64,000 bases of DNA from a virus, in the IMG/VR virus record IMGVR_UViG_3300030419_007010, positions 1 to 64,000 of that record. One strand, given 5' to 3'. Shown here in pieces: positions 4,858 through 11,671 of this stretch; position 1 is the stretch's first letter, and each line of letters starts with the position of its first letter. The translations under genes and the position numbers were made by a program. Below the pieces are notes generated by a model, which worked only from the letters and a program-made list of their open reading frames with translations, had not been told where the DNA came from and made no database searches.

Positions 4858-6216
4858 TTATTGGCTTCGACTTTCTTTGTAAATATTCTTAATCTTCTCT
4901 CTTTGTTTTTTAAGGGCCGTTCGACTGTCTACCTGTTCGATTGTTTCGTCTACAGGTTCAAGCACTTTTATTTTAACCCTTGAAGTGTCCATGAATAATG
5001 GATATATTAAACCATCTGGTCCGTTTCTATTTTTTGCAATGAACATCCTACCAGTATTGTTGTTCTTATTCTCGATTGTTCTTGAGATAGAAAATATAAA
5101 ATCAGCGATGAAGCATTTGTTAAATGCCTCTGAAATAGATTCCATCGTGATGACTTCTGCGTTCAATCCTGACCTATTCGTTTGGGAAGCTGTCCATACG
5201 GGACACTCGTACTCTTGAGCTATGGCTCGGAGTTCTTCATAAATAGATTCTAATTCGTTTCTTTTCTCTCGAAAATTATTTGTTGGTCTCAGGATGTCAC
5301 CGTAGTCAACGATGATCATATCTACCGTCTTATCCTTTCTCTTAAGCTTTTCTAAATGATTACGCAGAGTTCGAGGAGAAGCTGTCTTCGTGGGATATTC
5401 TTTTAGAATTAATTCGCCCTCTACTTCGATACAAGTTTCGTAAACATTTTCTTTTAAAGAGAACAAATCTTTTAAAGGTAAGCCGCTAAGACAGCTATCA
5501 TAACGAAGGCCAACAACTGCCTCGGAAAGCTCAAGAGTATAGTGAACTACATTCTTTCCTCTCTTAAGAGCTTCTGCTCCCAAGTGTACCAGGGCCATGG
5601 ACTTGCCGGCTCCAGTAGGAGCAATAACCACACCAAGCTCACCCTTCCCCAATCCATCCTTGCAAATTTTGTCGATGAGATCCCAGCCAGTAGAGACAGG
5701 ATTGCGCGCTTTTAATTGATACCTTGCTTCAAAATCTTTTTTGTAATCGTGACCGTAATCATTATCCAGTCCTAATTTTGTTGCCTCATCAATAACTGTT
5801 TTAATTTCCTCATAAGAAGAAGTTTCTAATAGATTTACAGATTTAAGAATAGCCTCTTTTAATTTTTGTTTTTTACAGAAATCTAGAGAGGTTGTTTTAA
5901 TATAATCTTCAGCATCAATATTATTTTTATTAATTCTTGTAAAGAAATCGCGGACTTGCTTCTGGATTACTGGGTTTTCTTCTTCCAGTGAAGACCTTAA
6001 GAGCATTGTCAGCGTTTCAGCACTCGGGTGAGTGTCGTATTCTTCTCTATAGTCAAATATAAGCTTTGTAAATACTCTAAGATATTTTAGTTCGAAGAAC
6101 GTCACGTCTAAAACCTCTTGCATCTGATCGCAGAAAGGGCGATCTTCTAAAAGAAGTTGAACTAAAGATTCTTGGAAAAGCTTTCCAAATTTTGAGAAGT
6201 CTACGCTTGAAGTCAT
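4858..6216 (-). CDS. Replicative DNA helicase, DnaB/T4 gp41 type
   Basis: 452 residues. The N-terminal ~150 residues are helical, as in DnaB N-domains. The RecA-like motor follows: STGWDLIDKICKDGLGKGEL, then Walker A APTGAGKS (199-206), the DnaB-type VVHYTLELSE (about 221-230), Walker B with VDMIIVDYGDI (about 301-311), and TASQTNRSG (motif H4/sensor region). It should load as a hexamer and unwind the fork 5' to 3', working with the gp61-like primase at 55.4 kb and the polymerase at 10.5-11.7 kb. A sigma70-like promoter lies just upstream within the end of the nuclease gene. The ribonucleotide reductase gene follows after 11 bases. Family assignment is firm. Confidence 0.92.
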   Translation of the reverse strand: MTSSVDFSKFGKLFQESLVQLLLEDRPFCDQMQEVLDVTFFELKYLRVFTKLIFDYREEYDTHPSAETLTMLLRSSLEEENPVIQKQVRDFFTRINKNNIDAEDYIKTTSLDFCKKQKLKEAILKSVNLLETSSYEEIKTVIDEATKLGLDNDYGHDYKKDFEARYQLKARNPVSTGWDLIDKICKDGLGKGELGVVIAPTGAGKSMALVHLGAEALKRGKNVVHYTLELSEAVVGLRYDSCLSGLPLKDLFSLKENVYETCIEVEGELILKEYPTKTASPRTLRNHLEKLKRKDKTVDMIIVDYGDILRPTNNFREKRNELESIYEELRAIAQEYECPVWTASQTNRSGLNAEVITMESISEAFNKCFIADFIFSISRTIENKNNNTGRMFIAKNRNGPDGLIYPLFMDTSRVKIKVLEPVDETIEQVDSRTALKKQREKIKNIYKESRSQ

Positions 6217-6225
6217 TACATACCT

Positions 6226-6254
6226 ATAGTAATACTATAAGCTCTTATTGTCAA
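6226..6254 (-). promoter_or_regulatory. Sigma70-type promoter ahead of the helicase gene
   Basis: TTGACA (6254-6249) is followed by a 17-base spacer and TACTAT (6231-6226) on the coding strand, ending about 10 bases before the helicase ATG. The -35 box is perfect and the -10 matches 4 of 6. The -35 box overlaps the last codons of the nuclease gene. Confidence 0.45.
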
Positions 6255-7200
6255 GAACAATCCGATTAAAGATCTGAAAAATACTGGACCAGTTATACTC
6301 GCCGAAGCCGTCCTGAATCATCATTTTAGTAACCTCTGTTTTATTAAATGTTACTTCCGGCTCCTGGACTGCATCGCGAGTTAGCTTCTTTGCTTTAGGG
6401 CTCAAAAATGGAGAGTATAACTGCATCATTTTATAATTATTTTCCAAGAGTTTGCTATTCTCTGATACATTTTTGTAAGCCTTGAGATCCAACTCCGTGT
6501 TATTACAATAATCAACAACTTCCTTTAAGGAATAAGATTTCTCTTCGCAAAGAAAAGGGAAACGTTTTTTAACGGTAGCCAAGCCAACGTTTCCAACGCC
6601 GGGGAGATTGTCTGATTTGTCTCCAACCATCGCCCGGGCCATTGCAAAATTATTTGGGTGAATACCAAACTTTTCTATTATATTGTTTTTATTAAGGATT
6701 TCTTTTTGTACTGGTCGAATGAGCACGGTGTTATCATCAAGTAGCTGATAAAAATCTTTATCACTTGAGACGATTACCTTCTGCCAGTCTTCGAAATACT
6801 TCAGACCCTTTACGTAAGCAATAATATCATCTGCCTCGATATGCGGGATCATAATTTGTGATACTGGACAGAAGTTAAAATACTCTAGCAATCTCATCTG
6901 TTGCCAGATCTTATTTTCCAACTCTTCGTTCTCGGTGAGATTACGGATCGCGCGGTTCAGCCTCAAAGGCTTACGGCCAGCTTTATAGTCTTTAACCATA
7001 GACTTTCTTCTCTGTGATCCGCCCTCGCCGTCCCAACATATAACTATCCTATCAGGCTTCGTCTCTCTGACAAGCTTCTGAAGAATTTTTAGTGAACCCT
7101 TGAGTCCGCCAATCGGCTGACCGTTTGAAGATAGAGATGGGTCGACTATGTATGCTCTAAAAAACATGTTGAGCATATCAACAATCAATACTCTTTTCAA
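6235..7200 (-). CDS. 5'-3' exonuclease / flap endonuclease (T4 RNase H, Pol I N-domain type)
   Basis: 321 residues. PIN/FEN-type motifs are clear: RVLIVDMLNMFFRAY with the first metal-binding Asp (D8), IGGLKGSLKILQKL, DRIVICWDGEGGSQRRKSMVKDYKAGRKP (the family's DG..R...Y K.R motif), then PHIEADDIIAYV and KVIVSSDKDFYQLL with the acidic cluster, and the helix-hairpin-helix region MVGDKSDNLPGVGNVGLATVKKRF. It would remove RNA primers from Okazaki fragments, the role of T4 RNase H, and is free-standing because the phage polymerase lacks such a domain. It starts one base before the 108-aa gene's end and lies between that gene and the helicase. Confidence 0.92.
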   Translation of the reverse strand: MKRVLIVDMLNMFFRAYIVDPSLSSNGQPIGGLKGSLKILQKLVRETKPDRIVICWDGEGGSQRRKSMVKDYKAGRKPLRLNRAIRNLTENEELENKIWQQMRLLEYFNFCPVSQIMIPHIEADDIIAYVKGLKYFEDWQKVIVSSDKDFYQLLDDNTVLIRPVQKEILNKNNIIEKFGIHPNNFAMARAMVGDKSDNLPGVGNVGLATVKKRFPFLCEEKSYSLKEVVDYCNNTELDLKAYKNVSENSKLLENNYKMMQLYSPFLSPKAKKLTRDAVQEPEVTFNKTEVTKMMIQDGFGEYNWSSIFQIFNRIVLDNKSL

Positions 7201-7545: not shown

Positions 7546-7574
7546 ATAATAAGTAGTTAGCTTTTACTCTTCAA
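7546..7574 (-). promoter_or_regulatory. Promoter-like boxes downstream of recA
   Basis: On the coding strand TTGAAG (7574-7569) precedes TATTAT (7551-7546) with a 17-base spacer. The -10 overlaps a CTACTTATT motif (7556-7548) of the kind seen in other intergenic gaps. It would drive the 108-aa, nuclease and helicase genes. Confidence 0.4.
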
Positions 7575-8676
7575 GTTCATAAAAATCTGCTGCTGGAGCG
7601 GTTCTTTCATCGAACTTTAATATAACTTCTTCATCGATAAGTTCCAAAACACGAGTTCGGAACTTCTCATCTTGTAATTTCTCAATCCATTTGGAGGCTT
7701 GGAACTTCTCTGTAGATCCGTCACCGTAGGTAAGAGTGTACCAAGCGCCGCCAGAATTAAGACTCTCTGAACCTTTGATAGCTTCCAGCCAAGACTCCTC
7801 ATCTTGGACACCAACCGCGTCACCCCAAAGAATCTTAAAGCTGCACTGTCTACCTTGAGTTCCAAACCTAGATTTTTCTAGCTTAACTTTGACTTCCGAA
7901 CCTATCCTATATCCTCTATCGTCCATGACAAAGGAGTTCTTAGCTTTGCGGCCGGTGAGCCATACCCGGAGACTATACGTATAGTGCATCGCCTTACCTC
8001 CGGGAGTAAAATAAGGAGTTGTCATAGCTTCTGCTACATTGCTCGTAATATTTGTCTTAAGCTGGTTCAGGACCAGTAGCGTTGCTCCGGCGTTAGCTAT
8101 TGGCTGTACTAGCTTCGCCATACCTTTAGACAAGATCCTCGGCTTCACTGCCATCGAGGAAAGCGGATTGAAATCACCTTCCTGGTCTGCTACAGAGGGA
8201 GTCAGAGCAAGACTGTCCCAAATAAACAGCATCTGGCTCTCATTGCTTCCGAGCAGATCTTCTATTGTTTCCAGCACGAACTCTACGCTATTGGCTTGTA
8301 CATAGAGGAGTCGACTCAAATCACACCCAGCTTTCTCTAGAAAAGTTGGGTCAATGGCTGACTCGCTGTCAAAATATACTACATCAATACCCATCTTCTG
8401 GGCGTTTGCTGCGACCTGTGCAGCCAAAAACGATTTACCAGTTGATTCGAGGCCTGCGATTTCAGACACCTTTCCTACTGGTATGCCTGCATATTCTCCG
8501 CGACATATCATAGAATCTAGCCAGCGAGAGCCGGTCGGGATCCATTCTTTAACCTTTGTTGGATTATCCTCAACAAGATTGTGGGCTACATCAAACCCAA
8601 CTTTACGATTGATAAGCTTTCTCATCTCATCAATGCTTAATCTACCGTTGCTCACTTTTGTCTTACGTTTAGCCAA
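7564..8676 (-). CDS. RecA/UvsX-type recombinase
   Basis: 370 residues. RecA-core motifs: WIPTGSRWLDSMICRGEYAG (substrate-entry region), VGKVSEIAGLESTGKSFLAAQ with Walker A GLESTGKS (75-82), VVYFDSESAI (about 100-109), the Walker B-type strand MLFIWDSLAL, and the loop region with LLVLNQLKTNI followed by PYFTPGGKAMHY. Length and lack of a long C-terminal domain fit T4 UvsX-like phage recombinases. It should form filaments on ssDNA and promote strand exchange for recombination-dependent replication, alongside the gp32-like SSB and gp46/47-like nuclease. The start is TTG at 8676, with AGGG about 9 bases upstream; an uncommon start codon. It is separated from SSB by 123 bases containing a strong structured element. 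Confidence 0.93.
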   Translation of the reverse strand: MAKRKTKVSNGRLSIDEMRKLINRKVGFDVAHNLVEDNPTKVKEWIPTGSRWLDSMICRGEYAGIPVGKVSEIAGLESTGKSFLAAQVAANAQKMGIDVVYFDSESAIDPTFLEKAGCDLSRLLYVQANSVEFVLETIEDLLGSNESQMLFIWDSLALTPSVADQEGDFNPLSSMAVKPRILSKGMAKLVQPIANAGATLLVLNQLKTNITSNVAEAMTTPYFTPGGKAMHYTYSLRVWLTGRKAKNSFVMDDRGYRIGSEVKVKLEKSRFGTQGRQCSFKILWGDAVGVQDEESWLEAIKGSESLNSGGAWYTLTYGDGSTEKFQASKWIEKLQDEKFRTRVLELIDEEVILKFDERTAPAADFYELEE

Positions 8677-8799: not shown

Positions 8800-9558
8800 C
8801 TATCCAAGTAGTTCTTGGAAAGCCTTGTCTACGGAATTAGTAGACTCACTGGAGTTGTTAGACTGATACTTCGTAGTCTCCGAAGAGGCAGACTCTGCGT
8901 CTCCTTCGTCTCCAAGCAAGAACTCATCGAGCATGCTCTGTACTTCTGCTGGAGTCTTGCGAGAATCCGAGAAAAGCTCGTCGAAATCCGGAACGCTGTC
9001 GAGGAAATCCTTGACTTGCTCCTGATCATCCGACAGAGGACTAGAGCGCCGGCGAGGAGTGATGGTTGTCTGCGGGAACTGTGCTCCCGGTGGCTTGCCG
9101 TAGGTAATAACCAAGTCGGTGCCAGACTCCACATCAGTAATATCGCCATAGTCAGGATTTAATACTAGCTGTAACAGCTCTTGGTAGGCAGTACGACCAA
9201 ACCCCCATGCCTTGACGCCCTCTTTCTCCTGGCCGCGTACAACGACAGGCGCAAAGAAACGCTGGCGAGCATTCAAAGACTTTGCCATCTTGATACTCTC
9301 GTCGTCTCCCTGTTGATAGAGGCTGCGCACGAAGTCATCCAGCGGGCATTGCTCGCCGAAGTTCTTCTTCGGGCTCAAGAATGCTGGGTTCTTGCCTACA
9401 TTGTAGTGGAACCAGAACTCCTTGAACGGGTCGCCGTCAGCAGTAGGAACAATACGAATAGTCGTATCTCCGTCCTGTGGCTTCCAGAAATTGTTCTTGT
9501 TTCCGTTGTTGTTCAAAGCTGCTAGCTTTGATTTCATCTTATTTAAATCGATTCCCAT
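8800..9558 (-). CDS. Single-stranded DNA-binding protein, T4 gp32-like
   Basis: 252 residues. The N-terminus (MGIDLNKMKSKLAALNNN) resembles the gp32 cooperativity region. The core has FWKPQDGDTTIRIVPTADG...FKEFWFHYNVGKN, the characteristic first strands of gp32-type OB folds, then ARQRFFAPVVVRG...KAWGFG. The cysteines of the T4 zinc site are not all present (only EQCPLDD is seen), so zinc binding is doubtful. The C-terminal ~80 residues are acidic and Ser/Asn-rich, ending in DKAFQELLG, the usual protein-interaction tail. It coats ssDNA at the fork and recruits the primase/helicase and recombinase. It has its own strong sigma70-type promoter and an AGGAG site before the ATG, consistent with high expression. 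Confidence 0.88.
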   Translation of the reverse strand: MGIDLNKMKSKLAALNNNGNKNNFWKPQDGDTTIRIVPTADGDPFKEFWFHYNVGKNPAFLSPKKNFGEQCPLDDFVRSLYQQGDDESIKMAKSLNARQRFFAPVVVRGQEKEGVKAWGFGRTAYQELLQLVLNPDYGDITDVESGTDLVITYGKPPGAQFPQTTITPRRRSSPLSDDQEQVKDFLDSVPDFDELFSDSRKTPAEVQSMLDEFLLGDEGDAESASSETTKYQSNNSSESTNSVDKAFQELLG

Positions 9559-9614
9559 AATTTTCTCCTATTGGGCTTGAGTATGCTTGGCTAATTTCCC
9601 AAACATCTGTATAC

Positions 9615-9643
9615 ATAATACTACGTGTGCAAACAAATGTCAA
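9615..9643 (-). promoter_or_regulatory. Strong sigma70-type promoter for the SSB gene
   Basis: TTGACA (9643-9638), spacer of 17, TATTAT (9620-9615) on the coding strand; -35 perfect and -10 5 of 6. The transcript would have an untranslated leader of about 50 bases before the ATG at 9558. The gap to the upstream gene is 92 bases, long for this genome. Confidence 0.7.
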
Positions 9644-9650
9644 CACTTTT

Positions 9651-10493
9651 TTAAAGATTTTCTTCCTGAACCAAAGTAGCGTGCGCAACGCAATAAACAT
9701 AGTTTTGTTCATACTGTGTTGAATAGATACCATACGATACCTTCACGTTCTCGCTCTCTGATTTTTCTTTAAGTTGAGTTGTGATCTTTTTATATAGACC
9801 TCCGGAAGACTGTAATTCTTCTTCATTGATTGCATAATAAAAGATCTTTTCCCTTGGCATCTTTAAATCATAAAATAGTTTTTCTTCGCCGGTTTCAATA
9901 TCTGCGAAACCGAAAGTTGAAATTCTTGCCGTCTCTACTGGTTCTGAAAATGTGCTCATTTCAGGTTTAATATTTGAGTAGACATTTATCATATGCATAG
10001 TCGGGACAATTAAATTATTTAGTTTTTCATGGTAGCCAATCACAGGAACATCGCCTAAAACTGATTCGACCACAGGATTAGATACAATAAACATTCTCTT
10101 AAGTAACCCAGAGCGCGCGTATTGTTGCAACACATGAAAAACTACTTTTTCTTGCTTTAGTTTTGTTTCTGATAAGAGATCCGTGTCCGGCTTTATGTAC
10201 AATACATACAAATCTAAATTCTTAAGCTTTTCCAGTACTCTTAAGCACGCTCCAGATATATCTCCAGATCCTGACAAAATAAAAATAACCGGTCCTTTAA
10301 TTTTTTCAAAGAACGCCTTTCTTAATCTGGTTTTTGACTCATACAGTTCATGATTATCTTGTTTTGTTATCTTAAGGTAGTTATCTTCCTTTTTCGACTC
10401 CGCATCAATATAAAAAGCTTCGTATTGCGGGTATTGTGAAAATAACTTTGCGATATTACAGCCTGCTTCTCCCAGGCCGACTACTGTTCCCAT
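9651..10493 (-). CDS. Divergent FtsZ/tubulin-like protein
   Basis: 280 residues. The N-terminus (VVGLGEAGCNIAKLF, 4-18) has the glycine-rich first loop and helix of FtsZ (GVGGxGxN). AFYIDAE (26-32) matches the FtsZ second strand. VIFILSGSGDISGACLRVLE (69-88) sits where the tubulin signature GGGTGTG occurs, in the form SGSGDISG. LYVLYIKPDTDLLSETKLKQ (95-114) and LLKRMFIVSN (130-139) match the FtsZ VVTKPF...EG.rR...A and D.lIviPN blocks. The T7-loop catalytic Asp of FtsZ (NxDFAD) is not visible at the expected place (about residue 168-180), so GTP hydrolysis may be lost or altered. The ATG overlaps the end of the polymerase gene by 13 bases after an AGAGG site. The fold call is inference from motifs; function could be a phage cytoskeletal or host-division-interfering protein. 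Confidence 0.6.
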   Translation of the reverse strand: MGTVVGLGEAGCNIAKLFSQYPQYEAFYIDAESKKEDNYLKITKQDNHELYESKTRLRKAFFEKIKGPVIFILSGSGDISGACLRVLEKLKNLDLYVLYIKPDTDLLSETKLKQEKVVFHVLQQYARSGLLKRMFIVSNPVVESVLGDVPVIGYHEKLNNLIVPTMHMINVYSNIKPEMSTFSEPVETARISTFGFADIETGEEKLFYDLKMPREKIFYYAINEEELQSSGGLYKKITTQLKEKSESENVKVSYGIYSTQYEQNYVYCVAHATLVQEENL

Positions 10494-11671
10494 TCTATTC
10501 CTCTCATCTCACCAAAATTCTTACCAATAGATACATTGACCTTAAAATCTCCAAAATTTGTCCCGGAAAAAATTTTGGCAATCTCGAAAATCAAGTTTCG
10601 CTCTTCTTTTGCGAAGTCAAGCACCAACGAGTCGTGTATACTAAATGCTATGTAAGATTTCTTATCTTCTAGAAACTTGTCTAGTTCAATAAGCTTTCTT
10701 AAAAACAAATCATTGGTCGAACTTTGTATAATATAATTCAGAGCATGATATTTATCTGACTGTATCTGTCGGCCAAAAATAGTGTTGACCTGTTCCCCAT
10801 CCCAATACCTTTCCACTACTTCGTCTCTTCTGTAAGCTCTGTTTGATAAAAAATCTCTTGAGCTAGGGTTATAAAGCCAAGCGAACACTCTCTTCTTTGC
10901 TTCTTCCCTGTTAAGTAACCCTCTATATACGTTCTTCGCATTCCACTCGTGGATATCTTCTCGTGGTTGTTTCTCTTCTAACAAAGCTAATAGCATTCTC
11001 AATTCGGCAGCGTTATAATCTAGCTCAACAAACAAATCATTGTTTGGTTCTAAAACATTTCGGAATTCTTTGTCTAAAGTTAGTATAGGGAAGCTATCTT
11101 TTTTCACCGACAATCTTCCTGTCTTTGTTCCAAAGATATCATAACAAATATGAGGAGAAATTTTAGTTATTTTTTTATAAAACCGGCGGCCTCTCTTACT
11201 AATCATATGTTTACTCATCTGTTTGAGATTGACATTTAGATCTCTTTTATTAATGTTGTCAAGAGCTTTCGTTAAAGACAGCAAGAAGTCATAGTTATCT
11301 GGCTTTTCATAATTCTGGAAAACATAATGAGTTATTTGATTTTTAATCTCGCAATATTCTTTCAGGAAGCGCTCCGGTACCAGATCAAAAAAACAATTTT
11401 TGTTTAAATCGATCTTCGCTTCAGAAAAAGATATCAAAAAAGCCTTTAGTTTATTACTAACCTCTTCATATCTATCTTTTAGGCCGGCAGGGCATACTTC
11501 TTCTAGCGTTTTGCCTTCACAGTACAAACTAGCGTACTCTACATCATCATTTAAGTAGGCAGCGTAGCTCCACGTTCTCGTCAGGCCATCTGGTATATCC
11601 TCATAGTACAGTTCGCCATTAAGATACACTGCTGCGCATTCTTTTTTGTTGTCTAGTGTTTGAAATAACAT
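10481..11671 (-). CDS. Family A DNA polymerase, polymerase domain only
   Basis: 396 residues. Pol I-type motifs are in order: the TxTGRLS element as GTKTGRLSVK (181-190), motif A DYNAAELRML (catalytic D218), motif B/O-helix EEAKKRVFAWLYNPSS (K259, F263, Y267), NYIIQSSTNDLF (about 312-323), and motif C SIHDSLVLD (H346, D347). Motif C has Ser348 where most family members have Glu (HDE). No 3'-5' exonuclease motif (DxE at the start of the usual exo domain) is visible in the N-terminal 170 residues and there is no 5' nuclease domain, so this is a minimal polymerase; the free-standing 5' nuclease is at 6.2-7.2 kb. Stop/start overlap couples it with the upstream structural gene and the downstream FtsZ-like gene. 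Confidence 0.88.
   Translation of the reverse strand: MLFQTLDNKKECAAVYLNGELYYEDIPDGLTRTWSYAAYLNDDVEYASLYCEGKTLEEVCPAGLKDRYEEVSNKLKAFLISFSEAKIDLNKNCFFDLVPERFLKEYCEIKNQITHYVFQNYEKPDNYDFLLSLTKALDNINKRDLNVNLKQMSKHMISKRGRRFYKKITKISPHICYDIFGTKTGRLSVKKDSFPILTLDKEFRNVLEPNNDLFVELDYNAAELRMLLALLEEKQPREDIHEWNAKNVYRGLLNREEAKKRVFAWLYNPSSRDFLSNRAYRRDEVVERYWDGEQVNTIFGRQIQSDKYHALNYIIQSSTNDLFLRKLIELDKFLEDKKSYIAFSIHDSLVLDFAKEERNLIFEIAKIFSGTNFGDFKVNVSIGKNFGEMRGIEWEQ

Follow-up and report, generated by a model that had tools for sequence, protein, structure and literature searches.

We identified a gene in a virus record of IMG/VR (IMGVR_UViG_3300030419_007010; 161,727 bases) whose product is predicted, almost with certainty, to adopt the full two-domain fold of the tubulin/FtsZ superfamily, and which belongs to the fixed core of the replication operon in a large clade of phages. 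The stretch analyzed, referred to as the window, comprises positions 1 to 64,000 of this record. The gene at 9651..10493 of the window and its relatives are named ftz here (Table 1). A preliminary description of the window had placed this gene between the genes for a DNA polymerase and a single-strand DNA-binding protein (SSB), overlapping the polymerase gene by 13 bases. The open reading frames (ORFs) and the Pfam matches of the two neighbors (PF00476 and PF08804) agree with this arrangement: the ftz and polA ORFs share 13 bases and 92 bases separate ftz from ssb.

A structure model of the window protein was built with AlphaFold2 (AF2) using 67 relatives, which resulted in a predicted local distance difference test score (pLDDT) of 95.1 and a predicted template modeling score of 0.92. 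All of the top 50 PDB matches found by Foldseek with this model were FtsZ or TubZ proteins (best FtsZ match with an E-value of 1.5e-13 and a query TM-score (TMq) of 0.73), and the best match among viral models (E 3.8e-13) was a protein named FtsZ from an uncultured member of the Caudovirales. In VIA-align comparisons the closest structural match was the archaeal protein CetZ (PDB 3zid, 4b45, 4b46), which aligned over both domains (3zid: Z 24.8, root-mean-square deviation 2.8, 257 aligned residues), followed by TubZ (Z 23.5), FtsZ (Z 22.6) and tubulin (Z 21.6), with residues 1-280 spanned. CetZ ranks first, yet at only about 16% identity and with TubZ and FtsZ within about two Z units; its role is in archaeal cell shape, not in phage replication, and it retains the GTPase motifs that are lost in ftz. 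A second AF2 model, seeded on a 41% identical family member, gave a pLDDT of 92.6 and matched CetZ with a Z of 24.1. In both models, the N-terminal nucleotide-binding domain, the tubulin-type core helix H7 and the C-terminal domain are present in one chain, and the superfamily matches extend over 257-275 residues with Z >20. Because two independently seeded models match the superfamily over the whole length, we consider the tubulin/FtsZ fold settled despite a marginal sequence match. The fold comparison returned CetZ, TubZ, FtsZ and tubulin and no confident fold of another class, in line with the FtsZ/tubulin-like fold that had been suggested for the window protein.

The link between ftz and FtsZ is marginal when judged by sequence alone. 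No Pfam, NCBIfam or PDB-sequence match was found for the window protein, its best PHROG match had an E-value of 0.17, no relative was found among cultured phages, and searches of PDB profiles with ftz gave unrelated marginal matches only. As no Pfam, PHROG or NCBIfam match rises above threshold, the family is hidden from annotation. It was not found described in the open-access literature searched, and a description elsewhere is possible. A profile-profile alignment (hhalign) of ftz with nine FtsZ sequences reached an E-value of 0.045 and was collinear across the N-terminal domain. The preliminary description had listed FtsZ blocks in the correct order, and this order was recovered, if at that marginal E-value: GLGEAGCNIA pairs with GVGGGGGNAV, IVSN with IPN and YHEKLNNLI with FGAANDVL, while FILSGSGDISGA pairs with the GMGGGTGTGA region of FtsZ in a register that is off by about two residues. 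The tubulin profiles PF00091 (best single-member E 0.0086, matched by 8/67 members) and TIGR00065 (E 0.011, 7/67 members) stayed below their curated cut-offs and did not match the window protein itself. A canonical FtsZ-like protein of related phages, used as a positive control, reached an E-value of 5.5e-12 against this FtsZ set in an alignment that covered most of the protein, indicating that the method works and that the ftz family is just very distant.

The Rossmann profile TrkA_N was as strong as the tubulin profiles (11/67 members, best E 0.0015), and TrkA_N and other NAD-binding profiles equal PF00091 on single members, as would be the case if ftz were a plain Rossmann-fold protein with a spurious resemblance to FtsZ. 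We regard this explanation as extremely unlikely, since helix H7, the C-terminal domain and the long superfamily matches are features of both AF2 models.

An alignment scan identified ftz relatives in at least 592 IMG/VR stretches, compared to 12 in the first scan. The carriers form a large group of uncultured viruses of bacteria that are apparently marine. A median dN/dS of 0.07 over 34 pairs shows that ftz is under strong purifying selection. The position of the gene is fixed as well. Among 89 loci collected with ftz as seed, polA is located upstream in 79 and the remaining ten have at most 645 bases upstream; ssb is located downstream in 87, and the remaining two end within about 130 bases. 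Conversely, 77 of 80 loci collected with polA as seed have ftz downstream, the other three being cut by the contig end (77/77 testable loci). In most of these polA-seeded loci ftz directly follows polA; 12 have about 200-310 bases inserted between the two genes, and two have about 2 kb. Exactly one ftz copy was present in each of 12 long records searched. In its evolution ftz keeps pace with polA, with mean pairwise identities of 46% and 49%, respectively; the values for ssb and recA are 64% and 73%. The number of relatives, the low dN/dS and the invariant synteny together argue that ftz is not a chance reading frame. One match, to a metagenome-assembled genome of WOR-3 (locus L092, CP070664.1), was considered for host assignment and rejected: the phage piece of about 5 kb lies between N runs inside bacterial sequence and is, because of these boundaries, apparently a scaffolding artifact and not a prophage.

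Conservation was counted over the 67 family members, and the parts of the FtsZ nucleotide pocket were located in ftz by the profile alignment (Table 1). N159 aligns with N186 of E. coli FtsZ in the marginal hhalign register, and thus the guanine-site Asn pair is matched by N139 and N159. The matching Asn residues contact guanine in FtsZ and tubulin. D30, which by block position equals D45 of E. coli FtsZ, is kept in 65/67 members, N170 is near-invariant, and Y24, L84, Q123, Y125, R127, S128, Y220 and Y261 are invariant as well. From these alignments, ftz probably still binds a nucleotide. Other parts of the FtsZ machinery are missing. In the family consensus GSGxISG the tubulin signature GGGTGTG is gone, the T3 motif GAGANP is not found in the aligned stretch ITKQDNHEL, and none of the acids of the T7 motif NxDxxD is invariant in residues 174-190, where the best acidic column reaches 72% and holds a Lys in the window protein. 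These residues form a loop in both AF2 models, from which helix H8 is absent. A C-terminal helix or acidic tail of the PhuZ/TubZ type is also absent; the window protein stops 8 residues past the modeled strand 265-272, and some members have a few extra C-terminal residues. The changes in GGGTGTG and the T7 Asp had been noted before, and the losses thus extend further, to T3 and H8. In Staphylococcus aureus FtsZ, any one of the substitutions D46A, R143Q, N208L, D210N and D213N is enough to suppress assembly (PMC8936486). As T3, GGGTGTG, the T7 acids and H8 are all missing, a canonical GTP-hydrolyzing protofilament is unlikely for ftz. In summary, ftz shares with FtsZ the fold and the order of the blocks, but differs from it in T3, the T4 signature, T7 and H8 and has no C-terminal linker or tail.

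We tentatively propose that ftz is a diverged, nucleotide-binding, non-GTPase tubulin homolog which is accessory to the PolA/SSB replisome. This phage replisome would have taken over a minimal and highly diverged member of the superfamily as one of its constitutive accessory proteins. Nucleotide would be bound by the portion of the pocket formed by T1, T6 and H7, and FtsZ-style GTP hydrolysis would not take place, as ftz lacks the elements with which one subunit completes the active site of its neighbor. The protein would most likely act on the polymerase or SSB as a monomer or as a fixed assembly of a few subunits rather than as a dynamic filament; it might be, for example, a processivity factor, an assembly factor or a nucleotide-sensing regulator. 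We infer the physical partners, the replication role and the absence of filaments. The functions offered in the preliminary description were a DNA-positioning filament, a degenerate GTP-binding regulator and an inhibitor of host FtsZ; of these, the regulator or accessory fits best, whereas the motif losses disfavor a canonical GTP-driven filament. That the tubulin fold has become a non-polymerizing, fixed replisome subunit, clamp-like or an assembly factor for a clampless PolA, we consider somewhat unlikely; to our knowledge, the use of this fold in such a way outside the cytoskeleton has not been described before.

A true cytoskeletal phage tubulin, with filaments that position or segregate phage DNA like PhuZ or TubZ through an atypical interface and with little or no GTP turnover, would also account for the full fold, for the high rank of CetZ and TubZ in the structural comparison and for the location in the replication operon. 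PhuZ is described as placing phage DNA at mid-cell (PMC4244570). PhuZ is likewise phage-encoded and the tubulin fold is common to TubZ, PhuZ and ftz, but hhalign detected no sequence similarity between ftz and PhuZ of phage 201phi2-1 (27 columns aligned, E 0.15). PhuZ phages are nucleus-forming jumbo phages, whereas ftz phages are of about 150-200 kb and carry the gene in the replication operon. Filaments of this kind are unlikely in our view, given that ftz has lost T3, the T4 signature, the T7 acids and H8, from which the canonical protofilament interface is built, that it has, unlike TubZ and PhuZ, no T7 catalytic Asp, H8 or C-terminal tail, that in protofilaments of PhiKZ TubZ, tubulin and FtsZ the same interface space is taken up by loop T7 and the H8 base (PMC3678025), and that a separate canonical FtsZ-like gene is present in some members.

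This second gene encodes a protein with an acidic N-terminal region. The protein retains the motifs GVGGGGGK and AGGGGGTGS, and its T7 region contains a pair of invariant acids. It belongs to the tubulin superfamily like ftz, but aligns with ftz by hhalign at an E-value of only 0.013. Relatives were found in at least 107 IMG/VR stretches, with no match in cultured phages. In the one record that was read, the gene adjoins a sigma-factor-like ORF (identified by eye) and lies outside the replication operon. Because both genes co-occur in some members, ftz is not the sole tubulin-type protein there, and the idea that canonical FtsZ-like genes simply replace ftz is unsupported, as both are present in five records. 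Other records have only the canonical gene, alongside a distant PolA type, and the window phage has only ftz.

Phages often block host FtsZ, as do gp0.4 of T7 and Kil of lambda. An FtsZ fold that lacks one half of the interface is what a chain terminator would have, and ftz might poison the host FtsZ ring by capping or defective co-assembly, stopping division of the infected cell. Two observations make this quite unlikely: the polA-ssb position is fixed in all testable loci and is not among the variable early host-takeover genes, and the identity between ftz and FtsZ is just about 12% when the structures are aligned. A different possibility is that ftz is an enzyme or nucleotide sensor, e.g., a switch that depends on GTP/dGTP, or a protein that regulates the translation of the replication genes. 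The strongly kept pocket residues, the unusual invariants C12, R127, S128 and M168 with the near-invariants H167 and N170, the ribonucleotide reductase in the same module and the covarying RNA hairpin right after ftz are consistent with such a role. The ligand is purely hypothetical, we know of no enzymatic activity of tubulin-fold proteins other than GTP hydrolysis, and we consider this role improbable.

Several points weigh against the proposal that ftz is an accessory of the PolA/SSB replisome or limit its support. Its operon position indicates probable co-expression and not contact. Among six gene pairs, ftz and polA have the highest correlation of distances (r 0.75), which supports the proposal weakly, and gene linkage alone could yield this mirror-tree correlation. 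The absence of T7 and H8 by itself is compatible with nucleotide-independent or atypical filaments, and the pocket was mapped via the marginal profile alignment and not by superposition. In favor of the proposal, no gp45-type (T4-type) clamp was detected in six clade genomes with a Pfam profile that found the T4 positive control, but this profile of one clamp family leaves room for other clamps. Finally, Flavobacterium phage immuto (MW353176) and Microcystis phage Mel-JY01 (PP395634) have the same gene order as the window (polA - x - ssb - recA - 5'-3' exonuclease - dnaB), but no tubulin-fold gene was recognized in their polA-ssb slot, which contains a family of 129-151 amino acids (aa) with no recognizable relation to ftz, plus others. 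As related phages with the same operon have no ftz, the gene is not required for such replisomes in general.

The 129-151 aa family, for which no Pfam or PHROG identity was obtained, occupies the polA-ssb slot of immuto, Mel-JY01 and the huge uncultured phage LR756508. A relation of these proteins to ftz as a split or shortened version is unsupported (hhalign E 0.2), and a 428-aa ORF in the slot of Mel-JY01 was rejected as an FtsZ-like candidate because it matches S-AdoMet lyase.

Table 1. Features of the ftz gene, its product and associated genes (window positions unless a locus is named).
Feature	Position	Strand	Evidence or remarks
ftz, tubulin/FtsZ-fold protein, 280 aa, ATG start	9651..10493	-	ORF, AF2 model, PDB fold matches, IMG/VR relatives
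T1 loop GLGEAGCN, residues 6-13	10455..10478	-	G6, L7, G8, G11, C12 invariant in 67; aligned to FtsZ T1
T4 position, residues 75-81, GSGDISG replacing GGGTGTG	10251..10271	-	profile alignment and conservation
N139 (T6)	10077..10079	-	invariant; aligns with E. coli FtsZ N165
Predicted core helix H7, residues 154-173	9975..10034	-	N159, M168 invariant; H167 in 66/67
T7/H8 position, residues 174-190	9924..9974	-	17-residue loop, no helix, no invariant acidic residue
PolA-family DNA polymerase, 396 aa	10481..11671	-	directly upstream of ftz; PF00476 E 2.6e-15
gp32-like SSB	8800..9558	-	directly downstream of ftz; PF08804 E 2.2e-15
RecA-family recombinase	7564..8676	-	PF00154 E 1.5e-34
5'-3' exonuclease	6235..7200	-	PF02739 E 2.6e-29
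DnaB-type replicative helicase	4858..6216	-	PF03796 E 9.9e-20
Canonical FtsZ-like phage protein, 364 aa	L189:2887-3981 (G006:C1:103386-104480)	-	
129-151 aa slot family	L187:7374-7763, L186:1346-1801, L185:7498-7887		

The operon continues after ssb with recA, a 108-aa ORF and the genes for the 5'-3' exonuclease, the DnaB-type helicase and ribonucleotide reductase. A simple ORF caller placed 162/171 ORFs of the record on one strand. Genes for a terminase, an SbcCD-like protein and a DnaG-type primase are also present. The window phage had been called T4-like, a label that is only partly appropriate: gp32, the DnaB-type helicase, RecA/UvsX, the DnaG-type primase, terminase and SbcCD fit it, while the short PolA and the failure to find a T4-type clamp do not. 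The window PolA (10481-11671) is just 396 aa long, with an N-terminal region that has no family match and no recognized 3'-5' exonuclease domain.

The gap between ftz and ssb contains a hairpin on the minus strand (window 9575-9606), which consists of an 8-bp stem and an 8-base loop, e.g., GAAATTAG, followed by an ACTTTA-like tail. It is located about 40 bases ahead of the ssb start and is present with such geometry in 65/76 gaps. In a set of 49 distinct sequences, each of the eight stem pairs shows changes on both sides of the stem; the set was chosen for having the hairpin, so that the pairing counts are inflated. The hairpin was found once in the genome of the window phage and had no credible Rfam match. 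A pseudoknot of the loop with the tail is unsupported, as only 59% of the cells pair. Just upstream of the hairpin, a near-consensus sigma-70 promoter (TTGACA-17-TATTAT, 11/12 matches) is found on the minus strand at window 9615-9643, which suggests that ssb may be transcribed apart from polA-ftz. T4 controls its own gp32 and polymerase genes via leader RNA structures, and a translational operator of the SSB gene is therefore, by analogy, a natural guess for this candidate element.

With few exceptions, the known proteins of the tubulin superfamily are polymer-forming GTPases. If the proposal is true, ftz would be a stripped tubulin of core replication in an abundant viral clade, showing that the fold is separable from GTP-driven polymerization and providing a small test case for its uses in the absence of such polymerization. 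The finding also points to a PolA-type replisome without a detected T4-type clamp, and the ftz family can be used for the annotation of viromes.
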